A stretch of DNA of 64,000 nucleotides, from contig NC_011027.1 of NCBI RefSeq assembly GCF_000020505.1, positions 852,001-916,000 of the forward strand, read 5' to 3'. The position numbers were made by a program, and so were the translations under genes. Under the pieces are notes generated by a model. The model was not told where the DNA came from. It saw only the letters and a program-made list of their open reading frames with translations, and searched no databases. Numbering within the stretch: position 1 is the first letter of the stretch; every line of letters begins with the position of its first letter. This document shows positions 11,071 through 18,712 of this stretch, in pieces. Origin of the DNA: Chlorobaculum parvum NCIB 8327. Lineage in GTDB: Bacteria > Bacteroidota > Chlorobiia > Chlorobiales > Chlorobiaceae.

Positions 11071-13746
11071 TTACGTTTCGCCCAATCTGCGGTTGAGATC
11101 CCAGTTGTAGGGCAGATAGCGTATGCGTAGTTGCGTCCTCATCGACACAATCCTTTCGCGGAGAGATTCGTCGCAGAATTGCAGGAGATAATCGAGCACC
11201 TGGTCTCGATTGTCTCCGAAATCCCGCCCATACCACTGAAATATCCTCGACAGGCGAAGTTCCCTTTTTTTCTCATCCAGTTCAAGACCGTTCCGGTTGA
11301 TGAAACTGCGCGCGGCGATATCGAGCTGATGGTCGATCTTTTCGGCATCGTAGAATTCAATGGGAGGGCAGGAACTTGATGCGCAGACCAGCGCGAAATG
11401 AATTCTCGGATCGAAGGTTTCGACCGCAAGTTGCAACCGGGGATCATTGCTGCTGAACTGCCTGATCGGAAAGGTCGGATGAGAACGATTTTTTCTCAGG
11501 ATTCCGTGCTCGATGTCATCGGGCGAGTAGAACCGGTCGCCGATGTCGTAACCGATCCGGCCGAAAAAGTTGACGATTTCAAGCACCGAACGCTGGATAT
11601 CAAGGGTGATGACGCCGTGGATAATGAGAATGTTGTAGATGTTGATCCAGAATGCTTTCCGCTCCATGTCGGTTTGCAGGCTCTCCGGATCGAATCTGTG
11701 CAGATGCTGCGCAAGCCGCTGGTACTCCCCGAAACTTCTGGAGCGTTTCATGGCGGGGTAGTCGACCCGTCTATGCCTTGAATCGAAGAATGCTCCCTGA
11801 AGTCGTCCGAGCATGACCTTCAGTCTGGCATCCAGTCTTGTCTCGATTTTTTCCGTTGTACTTTCAGCTGGCTGCCGAGATTCGTTGAGGGTGAGCCTGA
11901 GAGGCAGCAGCCACTGCATTCTCTGCATCAGCGAAAGCTCGGGATCCCGGGTTTCCGGCGGAAGTTTTCCGCTGAGCAGCGCCGCGATGGCGTTGATATA
12001 ACCGATGTGGCTGAACGCCTGCGGAAAGTTGCCGAGCATCTCCTTTCGGCGAGGATCGTATTCCTCTGCAAACAGTCCGAGATCGTTGGCTGCGTTCATG
12101 GTGACGCCAAGCAGCTCCTCGGCCTCGATGATTTTTCCCGACAGGGCAAGGCATTCGATCATCCAGAAATTACAGAGCAGAAAGCCACCCTCCTCTCCCT
12201 GAAGTCCGTCATCGGCAAGGTAGCGCCTGATGAAGCCGTTTTTCATGAGATGTTTCCGGCAGGCTTCGATGGTGCCCTGAATGCGATGGTCCGATACAGG
12301 CAGAAAATTGACCAGAGGCAAAATCAGCAGGCTTGCATCGAGAATCTCCGTGTCGAAACGCTGGACGAACGAGTTCAGCTTGTTGCTGAAGCCCCGTGAC
12401 AGCACCTGGCTTCTGATCTCCTCCCGTTCACGAGTCCAGCGATCGAGTGGCGCATTGAATCCGAATCGCCTGGCGATGGTGATGCCGCGGTCGAGAGCTA
12501 CCCAGCACATCACCTTGGAATAGACGAAATGGTACGGTCCGTTGCGGACTTCCCAGATGCCGTCATCGGGCTTGCGCCAGTTTTCGATAGCCATTTCACA
12601 AATATCCCGGAAAAAAGGCCAGAGCGTTTCATCGATCTTGCCGGCATAATCGGAAAGCCGGAGTGCGGCATCCATGACCTCGCCGTAGATATCCCACTGT
12701 TGCTGACTGTGCGCGGCGTTGCCGATTCTGAGCGGCTTTGAGTGCCTGTAACCGTCAAGATGCGTCAGATGCTGTTCGCGAAGGGCCTGTTCTCCGTGGA
12801 TCGAATACATGATCATCAACTCCCGGCTGCCGTGTTTTCGGTACGTATCGTGCAGCCAGCGGATGAAGCTGTCCGCTTCGTTGATGTGGCCGAGCGTGAA
12901 CAAGGACTTGAGCGTAAACGAGGCGTCCCGGAGCCAGGTAAAACGGTAGTCCCAGTTTCGTTCTCCACCGATGCTTTCAGGCAAAGAGGTCGTGACGGCG
13001 GCAATGATGGACCCGGTCGGCTGGAAGGTGAGCAGCTTGAGCGTTAGCATCGAGCGGTGAACCAGCGGGGTGAATTCACCGAGCCAGGTGCACCGCTCGC
13101 CGATGCAGTAGTGCAGCCACTCCTTCCACCAGCTTTTCGTTGATTCAAAAGGACAGGGGAGCTTTTCTTCGAGATTGACCGGGCCGTGCACCAGATCGAA
13201 ATGCGCCGATTCTCCCTGATCGAGAGAAAACGAGAGTGTCAGCGTGTCGGTTCCGGTGCCGTCAGCATCGAAATCCTGCAAGGAGTGCAGCAGGGTAACG
13301 GGCGAGTTAGCATGACTGATGGTAAAACCGGGGCCATCATGCTGGATAACGCTTTTGCTGCGTGCATAATCCGGACGAGGTGCCAGGGTCAGCATGAAAT
13401 CCATACGCCCATAGTCAACGCGCAGACACCGATGAATCCCCGGCGGCCGTTGGCTCAGGCTGCTGTTTTCAACAGGCATGAAATCATACAGCGTTGCCCT
13501 GCCATGTTTTGTCGTGAACGAGGTGGAGAGGATGCAGGTGCCGGTAAGGTATTCCCGGCTCGACGTGAAAGGTTCGGAAGGTTTGAGGCTGAAAAATCCA
13601 CCGTTGCGCTCATCGAGCAGTGAAGCGAATATGGTAGGGGAGTCGAAGTACGGCAAAGAGTAATAATCGATCGAGCCGTCGGCTGAGACAAGGGCCGCTG
13701 TTTGCATGTTGCCGATCAGTCCGTAATCCGAAATATTCCGATACAT
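11071..13746 (-). CDS. GH15 glucoamylase/trehalase-like enzyme fused to DUF547
   Basis: 891 residues. Seen: a GH15-type N-terminus (MYRNISDYGLIGNMQTAALV...DGSIDYYSLP), an (alpha/alpha)6 barrel with WDYRFTWLRDASFTLKSL near residue 264, DDGIWEVRNG near residue 390 and EEYDPRRKEMLGNFPQAFSH near residue 560, where the general acid/base residues of GH15 lie. From about residue 640 a second domain begins, with AFWINIYNILIIHGV near residue 695 and HFALVCASSSCPP near residue 784; these are DUF547 hallmarks. The expected activity is release of glucose from alpha-glucans or trehalose. DUF547 has no known catalytic role. No signal peptide, so probably cytoplasmic, fitting glycogen turnover. The fusion is unusual. 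Confidence 0.9.
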   Translation of the reverse strand: MYRNISDYGLIGNMQTAALVSADGSIDYYSLPYFDSPTIFASLLDERNGGFFSLKPSEPFTSSREYLTGTCILSTSFTTKHGRATLYDFMPVENSSLSQRPPGIHRCLRVDYGRMDFMLTLAPRPDYARSKSVIQHDGPGFTISHANSPVTLLHSLQDFDADGTGTDTLTLSFSLDQGESAHFDLVHGPVNLEEKLPCPFESTKSWWKEWLHYCIGERCTWLGEFTPLVHRSMLTLKLLTFQPTGSIIAAVTTSLPESIGGERNWDYRFTWLRDASFTLKSLFTLGHINEADSFIRWLHDTYRKHGSRELMIMYSIHGEQALREQHLTHLDGYRHSKPLRIGNAAHSQQQWDIYGEVMDAALRLSDYAGKIDETLWPFFRDICEMAIENWRKPDDGIWEVRNGPYHFVYSKVMCWVALDRGITIARRFGFNAPLDRWTREREEIRSQVLSRGFSNKLNSFVQRFDTEILDASLLILPLVNFLPVSDHRIQGTIEACRKHLMKNGFIRRYLADDGLQGEEGGFLLCNFWMIECLALSGKIIEAEELLGVTMNAANDLGLFAEEYDPRRKEMLGNFPQAFSHIGYINAIAALLSGKLPPETRDPELSLMQRMQWLLPLRLTLNESRQPAESTTEKIETRLDARLKVMLGRLQGAFFDSRHRRVDYPAMKRSRSFGEYQRLAQHLHRFDPESLQTDMERKAFWINIYNILIIHGVITLDIQRSVLEIVNFFGRIGYDIGDRFYSPDDIEHGILRKNRSHPTFPIRQFSSNDPRLQLAVETFDPRIHFALVCASSSCPPIEFYDAEKIDHQLDIAARSFINRNGLELDEKKRELRLSRIFQWYGRDFGDNRDQVLDYLLQFCDESLRERIVSMRTQLRIRYLPYNWDLNRRLGET

Positions 13747-13873: not shown

Positions 13874-16018
13874 TCAGGCTGGCTGGCTGATATTGAGCAT
13901 GGCAGTGACCTTCTGAAGGAAGGGCTTGAGTTTCACTGGCTTCATGAGGTTATCGTTGATGCCGCTCTCAGCCGCCATTTTCAAGGACTCACTATCCACA
14001 TTGCCGCTCAGGCCAAGAATGGGAATGGTGCGGAACGCGGTTGTTCCTGACCTGATCTGTGCTGCGGTTTCAAAGCCGTCCATCACCGGCATCCTCATAT
14101 CCATGATTAACAGATCGCAGTGTTCTTTTTCCAGAATTTTCAGGGCTTCGAGACCATTGGCTCCCTCCAAAATTCTGACCCCGAGCTTGTTGAGCATCGT
14201 TTTGATGAGCTTGCGGTTGAAGTCCTGGTCATCAACGACAAGCACTGTTTTGTCGGACATCGACTCCTTAATCGGTGCTCGAGTTGCTTCAATGGTGCTT
14301 TTCAGGGTTTTTAGCACTTCATGCAAGGCCAGCGGCGTAAAAAGGGTGCTCTCTGACTCGAGGTTGTAGTCCAGAGGTGTTGTTCTGGAGGAGGTGACGC
14401 AGGTGACAACAGGAAGCTCCTTGGTAGCTATATTTAGCTTTTTGCTCAGTTCGTCGGCATTGAGATACGGAAGTTCGCTGTCGATCAGCACAAGATCGAA
14501 GCGTTCTGTCGATAGTTTTTTGAAAGCCTCGCGTCCATCGGTTACCGTATCCGTTCCGAGCATCAACGGTGCGAGAAGGGCTTTGAACGTTTTCCTGAAT
14601 TCTGGCTTGTCACAGGCAATCAAGAGCTTTTTGCCTGTGAAGAATGGTCTGTATTCCTCGTAAAGTTGTGATTCGTAGTTCCTGATCACTTTGGGGTCGA
14701 CAGCGGGGAACTCAAGCACGAATTCAGTATATCGATCTTTTTCTGAGTTGCAGGAGATTGTACCGTCAAAAGACGTCATGACCCGTTTACAGAAAGCAAG
14801 GCCAAGGCCGGTACCGCCTTTTTTACCGGAAGTGAAAAAGGAGTCGAAAATTCTGGGCAGAACTTCCGGTTGTATGCCAGGGCCGTTGTCTCTGACGTAA
14901 ACTCTGTTAGTGGTGTCACCTTGTTTTAGACTGATCACGATGCGTCCATCTGGTTTTGCCTGGAGAACCTGTAGTGCATTGACCAGAAGGTTGTAAAGTA
15001 CTAGCGTGTAATTATCCTCCTCTCCGAGAAAAATAAAATCATGTCCAGGCTCGAACGTGATCATCTTTTTTTCTTGATCGGATGCATAGCCATACTCTTC
15101 TATTGCCTTACGGGTAACGGTTGCAGCAGAAAGACAGGTCAAGGTGCTTTTTGCTATATCAGGTTTCCTGAAATTGCCCAAGGTCATGGTGATAACATGG
15201 AGCCCTCGGTTGACAGCGCTTTGAGCTTGGACAACTCGTTTATGGATCGTTTCTATATTTTTATTCGGTAATGACTCTGTCTCTTTTTCAGTGGTTTTCA
15301 CCGGTAGCTCAAGCAGGATTTCATTTAGATTATGGTGTACCTGTGAAAGAGGATTGCGTAACTCATGGGCTATACTGCCCGCAAGGGCTTCAAGGGCAAG
15401 ATATTTTTCTTCAGATTTTTTTCTCTCGAGTTCTTTTATTGTATTAGCATTACCGAAGCTAAAAATATATCCAGCAATGATTGAAAAGACTATAACAATC
15501 AAATAAAGCGGAATATTGAAACTGGGATCGAGCGGAATATTATGCGTGGAAAAATTATAAAAGATTATGGCTCCCAGTACGCCGATCAGGAAATCGAACA
15601 TGAACATAAACCAGTTCGGTATGAACATCATCAGGACAAATATCATGAATATTTCCCAATACAGCCAAAGCTCGTGAAAATTGTTCATGAGCAAGTTGAC
15701 CGTGAAGATGAATGGTAGCACAAAAATCAGAAAAGTGTGCCAATAGTAAGGGAAATAGGGGGAGAATGACTTAGGTAGGCGGTGCATGAAGATGACGCTT
15801 ATGCACATGAGGGTGGCAATCAGCCGAAGCCAAAAATTTTCATAGGGAAGATGAAAGCCATACTTAAAAGTAAAATAAAAGAAAACATTAGCCAACGCAC
15901 CAATAATGCCTGATACCATAGCATCTGAACGAGAAACAAATATCCCTTCTTTCATGTACTCGTTCAGGTGGGTTAGCTTTTTCTTCAAAATCAATTCCCA
16001 ATTACGGTTTCCACACAC
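13874..16018 (-). CDS. CqsS-like hybrid sensor histidine kinase with two receiver domains
   Basis: 714 residues. Seen: six hydrophobic segments (about residues 36-190), then a HisKA box with His218 in AGSIAHELRNPL, an ATPase domain with N box NLLVNALQ, DNGPGIQ and GTGLGLAFCKRVM, a first receiver (462-575) with Asp513 but a poor acidic pocket, and a second canonical receiver (590-710) with VVDDQ, Asp640 and Lys693. The membrane part (FKYGFHLPYENFWLRL, MHRLPK, LLMNNFHELW) and the FTSGKKGGTGLGL/TEFVLEFP kinase region resemble my recollection of Vibrio CqsS, the receptor for the alpha-hydroxyketone CAI-1. That match is from memory, not alignment. It overlaps the FAD gene by 28 bp, so it is co-transcribed with it. 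No DNA-binding regulator is adjacent. Confidence 0.85.
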   Translation of the reverse strand: MCGNRNWELILKKKLTHLNEYMKEGIFVSRSDAMVSGIIGALANVFFYFTFKYGFHLPYENFWLRLIATLMCISVIFMHRLPKSFSPYFPYYWHTFLIFVLPFIFTVNLLMNNFHELWLYWEIFMIFVLMMFIPNWFMFMFDFLIGVLGAIIFYNFSTHNIPLDPSFNIPLYLIVIVFSIIAGYIFSFGNANTIKELERKKSEEKYLALEALAGSIAHELRNPLSQVHHNLNEILLELPVKTTEKETESLPNKNIETIHKRVVQAQSAVNRGLHVITMTLGNFRKPDIAKSTLTCLSAATVTRKAIEEYGYASDQEKKMITFEPGHDFIFLGEEDNYTLVLYNLLVNALQVLQAKPDGRIVISLKQGDTTNRVYVRDNGPGIQPEVLPRIFDSFFTSGKKGGTGLGLAFCKRVMTSFDGTISCNSEKDRYTEFVLEFPAVDPKVIRNYESQLYEEYRPFFTGKKLLIACDKPEFRKTFKALLAPLMLGTDTVTDGREAFKKLSTERFDLVLIDSELPYLNADELSKKLNIATKELPVVTCVTSSRTTPLDYNLESESTLFTPLALHEVLKTLKSTIEATRAPIKESMSDKTVLVVDDQDFNRKLIKTMLNKLGVRILEGANGLEALKILEKEHCDLLIMDMRMPVMDGFETAAQIRSGTTAFRTIPILGLSGNVDSESLKMAAESGINDNLMKPVKLKPFLQKVTAMLNISQPA

Positions 16019-17292
16019 TCATGAGCTGCCCTGAAACAGGCCTCAATCGAAGCTCCCCGACGATAATCCCCAGTGTATCCGAAGCCTGTAAAACTACTGA
16101 TATACTTATCTATTTTTTCAAGAAGCAGATGATGCCTGGATGAGTATGCGCATAACCCTTTAGAGAAGTATCGGTACACAAAGCCCTCTTTTTTATTGTT
16201 CTGGATATTAAAGTAAGGACTTGCTAGCTTTTCAGCAAGTTCAATTGCCTCCTCAGGGGACGTTTTTTCAGTGATTGCGGCTCTTGATGCTTTACCACTA
16301 AAAGTATATCTGACCATATCCAGATCATTAAGTCCATAAGCTCCCGCATTACTCAATGGTAAATTACGGCCGAAAACCATCGCCCGACGTTTTTTCTGAA
16401 ATACGTCATCGCTGTATTTTACAATGGCTACGCTTACAGGATAATAGCTGATTTGACGAAGCAATTCTGCTACTTCCGGTCTCTCATTCTGGAGTAAAGC
16501 TGCCAAGCTATGAGCAGGAAGGGCTGAAATGACTTTGTCATAATTCCCCGTGCCAGGAATTCCCTGGTGCAGGTAATCTATGCGAAACGTATCCCTGTCT
16601 TTGGTTATAGCGGTGATATGGTGCCCGGTCAGTATTCGGTGCGAATCTGACTCATAATTGTTTGCGAAGGTATTGAGCAGATCATGCATTCCAATGCTCA
16701 ATTGTTCGAAGCTGTCCAAGGCAAGGCCAAGGTTCGAGCCAAAATTACCGGGATAGCATTCCTCGGGCTCAGCCCCGTTCATTCTTACTGTGATCGGTCT
16801 TATTACATTGTCGATACACTGGCGGTTGAGGTATTGGTCAAGAGTGAGATGGTCAAACTGATCGCTCAGCGATTTGAAACAATCACTGCCTAGCACCCCT
16901 TGGCTTCGGTCATTCCAGATTGCTTTGATGTGAGGGTAAAGACGAATAATTCCTTGCAAGCCGCACAGTTGAACGAGCTTGAAAATGTTAAGCAATGGAT
17001 ATCCTTCGCGGCTAATGGAGATGAGGCGTCCGTTAAGCAGCTGGGATGTGTTGATTCCAAAATATTCGTATTCTGGATTTCCGTATGTCTTGGCAAATTC
17101 ACGGAAATGATTGTAGTAATTTCCAATGTTTTTACCGCCGAAATCTACCCAGCGCCCTTGCAGTAAATCGCTACCAACTCTACCGCCTATTTGTTTTTCA
17201 GATTCAAAAAGGTCTACCCTTACTTGCCGTTTGGCAAGGTAAAATGCAGCAGCAATGCCTGATATTCCGCTACCAATAACTGCTACACGCAT
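15991..17292 (-). CDS. FAD-dependent amine oxidase / protoporphyrinogen oxidase-like oxidoreductase
   Basis: 433 residues. Seen: an N-terminal dinucleotide-binding motif (AVIGSGISGIAAAFYLAK), then the FAD ribose Glu and LFESEKQIGGRVGS, and a C-terminal FAD closing segment GFGYTGDYRRGASIEACFRA. These place it among flavin amine oxidases, desaturases and NAD(P)-binding Rossmann oxidoreductases. Substrate unknown. The gene is wedged between the AfsA-like gene (10-bp overlap at its start) and the CqsS-like kinase (28-bp overlap at its end), so it is very likely part of their pathway; a tailoring step on a small signal molecule is an inference. No membrane anchor is evident. Confidence 0.85.
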   Translation of the reverse strand: MRVAVIGSGISGIAAAFYLAKRQVRVDLFESEKQIGGRVGSDLLQGRWVDFGGKNIGNYYNHFREFAKTYGNPEYEYFGINTSQLLNGRLISISREGYPLLNIFKLVQLCGLQGIIRLYPHIKAIWNDRSQGVLGSDCFKSLSDQFDHLTLDQYLNRQCIDNVIRPITVRMNGAEPEECYPGNFGSNLGLALDSFEQLSIGMHDLLNTFANNYESDSHRILTGHHITAITKDRDTFRIDYLHQGIPGTGNYDKVISALPAHSLAALLQNERPEVAELLRQISYYPVSVAIVKYSDDVFQKKRRAMVFGRNLPLSNAGAYGLNDLDMVRYTFSGKASRAAITEKTSPEEAIELAEKLASPYFNIQNNKKEGFVYRYFSKGLCAYSSRHHLLLEKIDKYISSFTGFGYTGDYRRGASIEACFRAAHECVETVIGN

Positions 17293-18168
17293 GGTGTTGA
17301 TAACGTCGATTCATGAAATTTTTTGAGCTTCGAATAAAAATTTGACTTATACCGTTCTGTTATTTTTTTTAGGCGTTGTTCTTTTTGCTGATAACGCTCA
17401 TTGGTAATGCATGCGAATGCTTTCAGAACGGTATCCGCACAGAGTCGACCCCACTGGAAAACCTGAATATAGATTCCAGCTTCCGTATCCTTACTTGTTT
17501 CGTCTACTGTAAAATCGCTGTAAGACCTGCATACTATAGGTGATTCACGCTCAAGAAAAGCGTGAAAATTCGTGTTGTAGTTTAGCAGGGCAAGTTTTCC
17601 ATCGATCGGTAATCCTTGGTAATGAGCGCTTGCAATTGCAGCTTGTCTCAATGCTTCGAGAATAAGCATTCCTTGGAAGTGTGGTGCATCATGATCGAAT
17701 TTTAGCTCGGCAGTTTCTGAAAAAATATTGAAGTAACGCAGACCTCCAATTGTGAATGGTTCCGAGACCAAAACGTTGGCATCGTGTTGCTTGTGAACCA
17801 TGTTTTTCTGTATTGGATTGGGCAACGCATCATTTTGACCAATGGCGATTGGACTGTTGATAAGGCTTCTGAGGTCAAGCGGAAGTTTCCCCATTAGGCG
17901 GGCTGCCGTATCAATGCCGAAAAGCTCATCATTGCTGAAACCCAAGCTAGCGATTGTTTCAAGTTTTTCGTAAAGACCGGGATGAATACGGCGATATTCT
18001 TGGGAAAGGAAGGGTTGACATGTATTCCCAAGAAGTCGCTGGAAGTTGCATGCTTCTTCAGGTGATTCGGCTCTGAGTACCAGCTGATCTTCAGGAGAAA
18101 ATGGAAGGCTGTCTCCGTCGATGAGCAGAATATAGGGGGGGGAACCGGAACGCAGTATCGGGTATCAT
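17283..18168 (-). CDS. AfsA-like hotdog protein, apparent frameshift at C8 tract near 5' end
   Basis: The clear coding part gives a C-terminal hotdog domain with AfsA hallmarks: MVHKQHDANVLVSEPF, then HDAPHFQGMLILEALRQAA and a following AHYQGLPI. AfsA condenses a beta-ketoacyl-ACP with dihydroxyacetone phosphate to begin gamma-butyrolactone signals. A protein-like frame continues upstream of the only in-frame start (TTG at 17945) as far as about 18160 (ILLIDGDSLPF, QEYRRIHPGLYEKLE), so the gene really begins earlier. ATG at 18168, preceded by AGGAAGGGG, would give 294 residues if the C tract at 18135-18142 had seven Cs; ATG at 18217 would read through with nine. With the eight present, neither does. 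It may be phase-variable, recoded, a pseudogene or a sequencing error. It overlaps the FAD gene. Confidence 0.75.
18135..18142 (-). repeat. C8 homopolymer tract (G8 on + strand)
   Basis: Eight identical bases, 26-33 bases downstream of the ATG at 18168. Their number decides which upstream start connects to the AfsA-like frame: C7 or C10 connects ATG 18168, C6 or C9 connects ATG 18217, and C8 connects neither. Confidence 0.9.
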
Positions 18169-18712
18169 TAGCCCCTTCCTGGTGATGATTCGTTTTCTGT
18201 GTCATACAGGCGCTCATAAAAAAAACTGATTTCAGTAATTTATGGCTTTGTTTTATGTGCGAACTCGACTTGTGCTTTTGTCAATCATGGCTGTTCGGAA
18301 CTGTTTAATAGCTCTCAGCTTGTCCGCTTATATCTTGATTGTACAGGTATTGTCTTGCACAGCAGTGCCCGAGTCTCTCTATGTACAATAAGGACTGATC
18401 CGACATTGATCTCAAGTTACTACAATTTTAACTCTTGCAGGAAATGGTTCCTGATTTTTGAAAAATTAAGAACGCTGAACGCTATCGATTGCTGGAGAGA
18501 GTGGGTCGGCTTGTTTTTATGTTTTAAATACTTCTTTATATACGACTTTTATCGGTAATTTACTATTGCCCACTGTTGTTCCGTTCAATAAAGTACAACT
18601 TTTTTTATCGGTTCATAGCGTGGAAAAAAACGAAGTTTAAGTGTGTTCATAGTGCTTTCTGGTAATTGTTTACTAGTTGATCACTGGGGGTACACTTCAT
18701 GAGGCAGCTTGA
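18169..18712. other. Non-coding stretch upstream of the AfsA-like operon
   Basis: About 540 bp, AT-rich, with no convincing coding frame on either strand apart from the alternative 5' extension to ATG 18217. It should hold the leftward operon's promoter. The only notable signal is the TGTACA pair at 18340-18387. The rightmost part (18560-18712) follows the stop of the SnoaL-like gene and shows no clear terminator. Confidence 0.5.
18340..18387. promoter_or_regulatory. Two TGTACA palindromes 42 bp apart, possible operator
   Basis: TGTACA at 18340-18345 and 18382-18387. Their flanks make an inverted pair (ATTGTAC at 18338-18344, GTACAAT at 18383-18389). The 42-bp spacing is about four helical turns. 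They lie 120-220 bp upstream of the AfsA-like start codons. No factor is known; this is pattern only. Confidence 0.3.

Follow-up and report, generated by a model that had tools for sequence, protein, structure and literature searches.

A predicted quorum-sensing operon of Chlorobaculum parvum joins an AfsA-like enzyme and a flavoenzyme to a CqsS-type hybrid kinase, and its synthase is replaced at the same site in relatives

Three adjacent genes on the reverse strand of Chlorobaculum parvum NCIB 8327 encode an AfsA-like hotdog protein, an FAD-dependent oxidoreductase, and a hybrid histidine kinase with a CqsS-type sensor. By comparing sequences across related genomes, we predict that this operon works as a self-contained unit for quorum sensing (an autoinducer module), to which we assign a probability of roughly 0.8, and that the AfsA-like protein and the flavoenzyme (AfsA-FAD) most probably make the ligand sensed by the kinase. 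The idea that the first two gene products make a molecule that the third one senses was put forward in the original prediction; it is supported here by synthase replacement at the same locus, by pseudogene remnants, and by sensors that track the synthase type. The following features were located in the window, i.e., the whole analyzed stretch of 64,000 nucleotides:

13874..16018, reverse strand: gene 3, hybrid sensor histidine kinase (714 aa from GTG 16018; 704 aa from TTG 15988)
13907..14245, reverse strand: second receiver domain of gene 3, canonical (Pfam and sequence)
14294..14641, reverse strand: first receiver-like domain of gene 3, partly divergent (position read from the sequence)
14702..15391, reverse strand: HisKA and HATPase_c core of gene 3 (H218, N-box, G boxes)
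15404..16018, reverse strand: CqsS-type six-helix sensor region of gene 3 (W118 at the position of W104 in V. cholerae CqsS, W121 at that of S107)
15991..17292, reverse strand: gene 2, FAD-dependent oxidoreductase with the amine oxidase / protoporphyrinogen oxidase fold
17283..18217, reverse strand: gene 1, AfsA-like (PF03756) hotdog protein (conserved ATG 18217; AfsA frame open from about 18143, stop codon at 17283)
17415..17801, reverse strand: PF03756 hotdog domain of gene 1
18135..18142, reverse strand: C8 homopolymer, one base missing relative to genome L041, splitting the conserved start from the AfsA frame

The AfsA type proposed for gene 1 was confirmed by a Pfam search (PF03756, E=6.1e-38, 130 bits with a cut-off of 24). 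The genome has no other PF03756 match, and the motif FDHxxxHxQGxxxxEAxRQ is invariant across 26 sequences of the gene 1 type. The protein contains one PF03756 match, whereas synthases of Streptomyces and Rhodococcus have two PF03756 repeats (PMC5735094), and it scores 37.6 bits with the butyrolactone-synthase model NF041195 (ScbA/BarX), below the equivalog cut-off of 200. The AlphaFold model of the C. tepidum-type orthologue has a single FabZ-like hotdog following a different alpha/beta domain; a sequence search found no solved structure related to the AfsA-like protein. An A-factor-like product of the single-hotdog gene 1 is possible. Gene 2 is matched by PF01593 and protoporphyrinogen-oxidase-like models, in agreement with its proposed role as an FAD oxidoreductase. 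The tight overlaps described earlier hold for genes 1 and 2 (10 nt, 17283–17292), while for genes 2 and 3 an overlap (28 nt) exists only if gene 3 starts from GTG 16018, and none from TTG 15988. Relatives point to TTG 15988 as the gene 3 start.

Gene 3 is, as proposed, a hybrid histidine kinase with H, N, G1, and G2 boxes (HELRNP 218, NLLVNA 343, DNGPGI 377, and GTGLGL 402) and two receiver domains including a phospho-acceptor Asp (DD 596, LLIMD 636–640); Pfam detects two Response_reg stretches, giving coordinates for the best one only. The suggested resemblance of its sensor to CqsS was assessed by direct comparison with the V. campbellii record, yielding a near full-length tblastn match (E=5e-37) and, for the sensor, an hhalign probability of 98% (E=7.6e-14, 185 columns). 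No NCBIfam model for CqsS is among the matches of gene 3, the nearest being LuxN, which covers the kinase region only. In V. cholerae CqsS, position 107 together with W104 reads the signal head group (PMC3376566). The AfsA-linked receptors of green sulfur bacteria keep W104, but S107 is replaced by W in 26/26 of them; of the gatekeeper residues F160, F162, and F166, the second is mostly kept, while position 166 is A or V and position 160 is mostly I or L. The proposed likeness to AfsA and CqsS is to be taken with an adjustment: both family matches are significant, but the receptor has no S107 and gene 1 does not have the two repeats of a classical AfsA.

The order AfsA-FAD-kinase on one strand was observed at 28/28 AfsA loci in 27 of 98 genomes, with the contig of L034 ending before the kinase and the kinase cut off in L042 and L052. 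This conservation, expected from the original prediction for other Chlorobi, extends down to approximately 39% identity in gene 1. Absence of a significant AfsA or CqsS match, or kinase homologues lying apart from the other two genes, had been named in advance as evidence against the module, and neither was seen. The cassette occurs in two genera at two unrelated chromosomal sites with differing flanking genes; its distribution is patchy, and most relatives lack it. No PF03756 match was found elsewhere in the phylum, outside these two genera (395 genomes), and no AfsA relatives were found on plasmids. The locus is variable, with additional kinase copies. All AfsA-bearing Chlorobium genomes (15/15) also encode CqsA elsewhere in the genome, and AfsA and CqsA would therefore serve separate channels there; the genome of the window has no CqsA, beside a receptor or otherwise.

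At the same site, other Chlorobaculum genomes carry different synthases. In L171, L173, L174, and L175, the orthologous kinase (57–59% identical) adjoins CqsA, and in three Chlorobaculum genomes it adjoins a SAM-methyltransferase. The CqsA protein of L174 scores 590.8 bits with the alpha-hydroxyketone autoinducer synthase model NF005526 (cut-off 428), which is exceeded in 30/30 genomes with CqsA-type matches, these four included. In L171 and L175, decayed sequence of the FAD gene still separates CqsA from the kinase. The earlier statement that CqsS-type receptors are known beside CqsA rather than AfsA, and that neither is a textbook feature of green sulfur bacteria, requires an adjustment, as CqsA/CqsS pairs do occur in this group and were described previously in Prosthecochloris (PMC10158934).

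The sensors change along with the synthase: in contrast to the W107 of AfsA-linked receptors, S is found in 10/10 CqsA-linked ones. Since three S107 kinases do not adjoin CqsA, namely L040b and L044c, tandem extras beside AfsA operons, and L172a at a methyltransferase locus, S107 alone does not define the partner. In the kinase tree, the CqsA-linked kinases of this locus nest within the AfsA-linked clade, and a tree in which the AfsA-linked kinases of Chlorobaculum remain separate was rejected (core p=5e-8; sensor p=0.007). The trees also rejected an origin of these kinases by import, along with CqsA, from the second CqsA-linked clade of green sulfur bacteria. As the CqsA-linked kinase group at this site arose once, few independent events stand behind the W-to-S correlation. 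For the methyltransferase-linked kinases, sensors group by partner, whereas cores group by locus, with the local AfsA-type kinases; both alternatives to this arrangement were rejected (p=2e-80 and 3e-8).

Gene order, homologies, replacement at one locus, remnants, and sensor signatures that follow the synthase are observed; that a signal is produced, what it looks like, which way phosphate flows, and which genes respond are inferred. The AfsA-like hotdog enzyme would join an acyl thioester from fatty-acid synthesis with a small polar partner, and the flavoenzyme would oxidize the product. The finished lipophilic signal would then diffuse to the CqsS-type kinase, reach the six-helix sensor, and alter the phosphorylation state of the protein. 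The locus itself acts like a socket, in which AfsA-FAD is exchanged for CqsA or a SAM-methyltransferase in other Chlorobaculum and the sensor changes to match. We consider it likely, if somewhat less so than the module itself, that this one chromosomal socket accepts interchangeable chemical languages: the CqsS-type receptor stays in place, at least three unrelated synthases (AfsA with the flavoenzyme, CqsA, and SAM-methyltransferase) are exchanged, the sensor is retuned by a point change or swapped with the synthase, and the AfsA-flavoenzyme signal represents a new type of autoinducer among those sensed by histidine kinases.

An alternative explanation, that AfsA-FAD supplies the cell itself with a lipid, pigment, or envelope component and the kinase regulates this pathway on an unrelated cue (membrane state, light, or redox), draws on the wide occurrence of hotdog and amine-oxidase folds in the metabolism of lipids and pigments. 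It seems improbable, as CqsA, a dedicated autoinducer synthase according to NF005526, takes the place of AfsA-FAD next to the orthologous kinase in relatives, the sensor domains change with synthase type, and the genes are patchy in distribution and absent from most relatives. Still less credible is that AfsA-FAD and the kinase are merely hitchhiking neighbors moving as one island. The variability of the locus and its extra kinase copies fit this scenario, but in two genera and at two unrelated sites whose flanking genes differ the three genes remain side by side, and partner-specific sensor changes would be unexpected. A narrower form of the quorum-sensing reading, that the product is a true gamma-butyrolactone or butenolide of the A-factor type, formed from a beta-keto-acyl thioester and dihydroxyacetone phosphate, with the flavoenzyme rather than the usual reductase completing it, is conceivable, with the odds somewhat against it. 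The PF03756 score far above the cut-off and the invariant motif favor it, as does the PF03756 domain of a Gram-negative bacterium, Burkholderia gladioli, which performs a condensation of the beta-keto-acyl thioester/DHAP type in vitro (PMC7756379). On the other hand, only one hotdog domain is predicted, the NF041195 score is low, the operon has no BprA-like reductase, phosphatase, or TetR receptor, and the ligands of the receptor's best-known relatives are hydroxyketones rather than lactones.

The remaining alternative concerns this genome only and is compatible with the quorum-sensing reading for the family: the module may be broken, gene 1 being a pseudogene and the kinase an orphan receptor listening to neighbors. 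We regard this as a serious prospect, though short of an even chance. The start of gene 1 originally placed at 18217 stands in so far as this ATG is kept in close relatives; in the window, however, it is one base out of register with the AfsA domain, the C8 tract being one base shorter than in the closest relative, the sister L041 (93% identical), and the AfsA frame contains no ATG, GTG, or TTG before 17945. A frameshifted receptor is known in another genome, L030. Against this, the rest of gene 1 is under purifying selection (dN/dS 0.18 relative to L041), so that any loss is recent, and a homopolymer sequencing error or phase variation would look identical. The deletion is thus a sequencing error, phase variation, or a true loss; a conserved contingency locus was rejected, as the poly-C tract is absent from relatives. 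Because its synthase is frameshifted, the strain may be a non-producing listener, unless the shift is a sequencing error or phase-variable.

No paper in the literature searched names an AfsA-type synthase and a CqsS-type receptor together, and the combination, most probably a quorum-sensing pair, joins the Actinobacteria (AfsA) and Gram-negative (CqsS) traditions of textbook signaling. If the reading is true, the AfsA-flavoenzyme signal is a new autoinducer class for a histidine-kinase receptor. The swapping locus provides natural matched sets of receptors, approximately 57–63% identical, with different partners, and therefore makes the reading of lipid signals by membrane kinases directly testable. 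Our results suggest that cell-cell signaling in green sulfur bacteria is widespread and uses several channels, the systems previously noted in them being of the CAI-1 type alone (PMC10158934).

Among known systems, the Streptomyces AfsA/ArpA pair shares with the operon a PF03756 synthase carrying the FDHxxxHxQG...EAxRQ motif, but differs in synthase layout, as described above, and in its receptor, which is a cytoplasmic TetR-type repressor and not a membrane histidine kinase. In gamma-butyrolactone systems the TetR-type receptor lies beside the synthase, whereas here a flavoenzyme and a histidine kinase accompany it in the operon. Ralstonia Phc (PhcB methyltransferase, PhcS kinase) provides a precedent for a methyltransferase-made, lipid-derived signal beside a sensor kinase, which bears on the methyltransferase allele rather than that of the window. 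The methyltransferase of the three Chlorobaculum genomes has a homologue in a PhcBSR-like operon of Paraburkholderia graminis, the comparison being with the P. graminis enzyme rather than PhcB; the P. graminis kinase beside it was considered as CqsS-like, which was unsupported, as its sensor is not detectably so. The Prosthecochloris CqsA/CqsS pairs (PMC10158934) come from the same phylum and likewise have CqsS-type receptors adjoining the synthase; that report describes the CAI-1 type only, and its available part names no AfsA, methyltransferase, or hotdog-methyltransferase partners. Compared with Vibrio CqsA/CqsS (CAI-1) and Legionella LqsA/LqsS, the operon has AfsA-FAD instead of CqsA as the synthase, W instead of S107, and two receiver domains; an Hpt protein, as in the LuxU-type phosphorelay of the CqsA/CqsS system, was not detected in the genome (PF01627, E<=1e-3, a threshold that a divergent Hpt could escape). 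Common to all three are a six-helix CqsS-type sensor on a LuxN/CqsS-type kinase, a synthase gene adjoining the receptor, and the retained W104, and a CqsA-type pair is present at the very same site in relatives of the window's genome.

The three-gene set lies on the minus strand, and its features are as follows.

18217 to 13874, minus strand: AfsA-like gene, FAD gene and hybrid kinase gene, in that order
15991-17292, minus strand: FAD oxidoreductase of the amine-oxidase/protoporphyrinogen-oxidase group
13874-16018, minus strand: hybrid kinase with H, N and G boxes all present and two receiver domains

The original prediction named the first two products as an AfsA-type hotdog protein and an FAD oxidoreductase, and both assignments hold. 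The first gene matches PF03756, the AfsA hotdog domain, at 130 bits (E=6.1e-38; cut-off 24 bits) and encodes the only PF03756 protein of this genome. The second matches the amine-oxidase/protoporphyrinogen-oxidase group, and its AlphaFold model (pLDDT 82, pTM 0.85) matches Myxococcus PPOX (Foldseek E=2.8e-24). The tight overlaps claimed for the set are certain for the first pair (10 nt); the second pair overlaps by 28 nt only if the kinase starts at GTG 16018, and is separated by a 2-nt gap if it starts at TTG 15988, the start position used in relatives. Among NCBIfam models, the third protein best matches the kinase portion of LuxN, a quorum-sensing kinase (E=1.5e-73). The genome yielded no Hpt domain, and hence a relay through LuxU, as in Vibrio, is not evident. 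Just downstream of the kinase (11071-13746) lies a gene for a GH15/trehalase-like protein fused to a C-terminal DUF547 domain; a 342-aa ORF alone takes its place in the C. tepidum-type locus.

The likeness of the sensor to CqsS, as originally predicted, is borne out by alignment: a profile of 14 green-sulfur sensors matches the V. campbellii CqsS sensor with 98% probability (E=7.6e-14, 185 columns). Searched by tblastn in the plasmid collection, the sensor and kinase part matched second replicons of Vibrio over nearly its full length. The V. campbellii match is adjoined, on the opposite strand, by a 433-aa protein that we read from its sequence and position as CqsA; a search with it recovers, from green sulfur bacteria, NF005526-type synthases that are 45–51% identical to it.

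Of the 98 genomes in the class, 27 have PF03756, and among 395 genomes sampled in the phylum none outside those 27 does; the sensor profile finds kinases in 46 of the 98. Conservation of gene order in other Chlorobi had been proposed as a check, and the order AfsA, FAD, kinase on one strand was observed at 28/28 loci, counting L034, whose contig ends before the kinase, and L042 and L052, in which the kinase is cut. Protein identities fall as low as 39% (AfsA), 48% (FAD) and 44% (kinase). The cassette occupies one place in Chlorobaculum and a different one in Chlorobium.

The Chlorobaculum site, bounded by conserved flanking gene clusters 2, 8, 7, 6 on one side and 4, 5, 9, 1 on the other, holds one of three alternatives: AfsA-FAD-kinase, CqsA with a kinase (L171, L173, L174, L175; kinase 57–59% identical), or a SAM-methyltransferase with a kinase (L172, L176, L177; the L176 methyltransferase gene is apparently truncated or frameshifted). 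The CqsA proteins of all four genomes exceeded the NF005526 cut-off in a class-wide search (590.8 bits against 428 for L174). In L171 and L175, FAD-gene sequence full of stops persists between CqsA and the kinase, indicating that AfsA-FAD occupied the site earlier. CqsA also adjoins CqsS-type kinases at other sites in Chlorobium (L197, L202-L204, L207) and at a second locus of this kind in a Chlorobaculum genome (L206, in G010), as does the methyltransferase elsewhere in Chlorobium (L178, L182-L184). At seven Chlorobium loci (L180, L191-L195, L198), an N-terminal region that resembles a hotdog domain (with a weak match to YiiD_C) is fused to an LCM-type (TIGR00027) methyltransferase directly upstream of the kinase; this fusion is a candidate further signal synthase. 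Paraburkholderia caribensis plasmid 2 (L135, 4807-8556) holds another candidate synthase-receptor pairing, in which the gene directly before that of a CqsS-type hybrid kinase encodes a KAS III-like protein. On a Paraburkholderia graminis plasmid (L209, 3467-7842), a homologue of the methyltransferase allele found at the green-sulfur locus, with a KP.GYAGDY motif, precedes a kinase and two response regulators, a layout like that of Ralstonia phcBSR. At L201 and L205, at least two CqsS-type kinases stand in tandem with no recognised synthase adjoining.

In V. cholerae CqsS, the signal head group is read by W104 and S107 (PMC3376566). We scored position 107 in an alignment that takes V. campbellii CqsS as its anchor and in which the spacing from W104 to residue 170 is as expected. 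It is W in 26/26 AfsA-linked receptors and S in 10/10 CqsA-linked green-sulfur receptors, as it is in the proteins from Vibrio, Cupriavidus and Tistrella; receptors of the hotdog-methyltransferase group have A or C there, and the one next to the KAS III-like protein has A. Of the eight receptors of methyltransferase loci, seven keep W107 together with P at 103. The exceptions carrying S107 are one extra kinase in L172 and tandem extra kinases immediately downstream of AfsA-type operons (L040b, at L040 12376-14592, and L044c, at L044 10496-12652); the latter two may listen to CAI-1-like signals of other strains.

In the kinase tree, CqsA-linked Chlorobaculum receptors fall inside the AfsA-linked clade. 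Three methyltransferase-linked receptors have a sensor that groups with other methyltransferase-linked sensors and a kinase core that groups with local AfsA-linked kinases. Topology tests, whose p-values are somewhat flattering because the groups were picked after the trees were seen, rejected a Chlorobaculum AfsA-linked group apart from the CqsA-linked receptors (AU p=5e-8 for the core, 0.007 for the sensor) and either the sensor or the core grouping forced on the other data set (p=2e-80 and 3e-8); likelihood differences were large (119 and 483 units). The pattern in these three methyltransferase-linked receptors is one of sensor and synthase being exchanged together.

The AfsA frame of the window contains no ATG, GTG or TTG from the upstream stop codons until TTG 17945, and the conserved start (MSA[CS]xTQ), at ATG 18217, is in a different frame. 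Relative to its 93%-identical sister locus, the window is one base short in the present C8 tract (18135-18142), which may reflect a sequencing error, phase variation or recent loss. Against the sister, dN/dS is 0.18 for the AfsA frame (0.29 for the first 80 codons), compared with 0.06 in the FAD gene and 0.12 in the kinase gene; these values imply that decay of the AfsA-like gene, if real, is recent. A counterpart, with the receptor frameshifted in place of the synthase, was observed in a single-contig Chlorobaculum genome (L030 near 6435, in G015): where its kinase gene encodes the first transmembrane region, a poly-T tract is two Ts shorter than in relatives.

The model of the C. tepidum-type AfsA orthologue (pLDDT 82) comprises an alpha/beta N-terminal domain, one hotdog domain and a long C-terminal helix. 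Its top PDB matches are FabZ, a dehydratase that uses ACP (E=3e-5; target-normalised TM up to 0.75). The motif FDHxxxHxQGxxxxEAxRQ is invariant across 26 sequences. The AfsA-like enzyme would be expected to run an acyl-ACP-using condensation, with flavin oxidation following. PF03756 domains in Streptomyces, and in a polyketide synthase of Burkholderia gladioli, join beta-keto-thioesters to dihydroxyacetone phosphate by condensation (PMC7756379). The PF03756 repeat occurs twice in synthases of the Streptomyces type (PMC5735094) but once in the window's protein, which scores far under the cut-off of the butyrolactone-synthase model.

No paper naming CqsS and AfsA together was found in the literature searched, which largely left out subscription journals and preprints, and the single report on green sulfur bacteria that came up notes only CAI-1-type systems (PMC10158934). 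Because some defining features of the CqsA/CqsS system and some of gamma-butyrolactone systems were tested for and found lacking, we assign the three-gene set to neither and class it as synthase-receptor quorum sensing in a new form.
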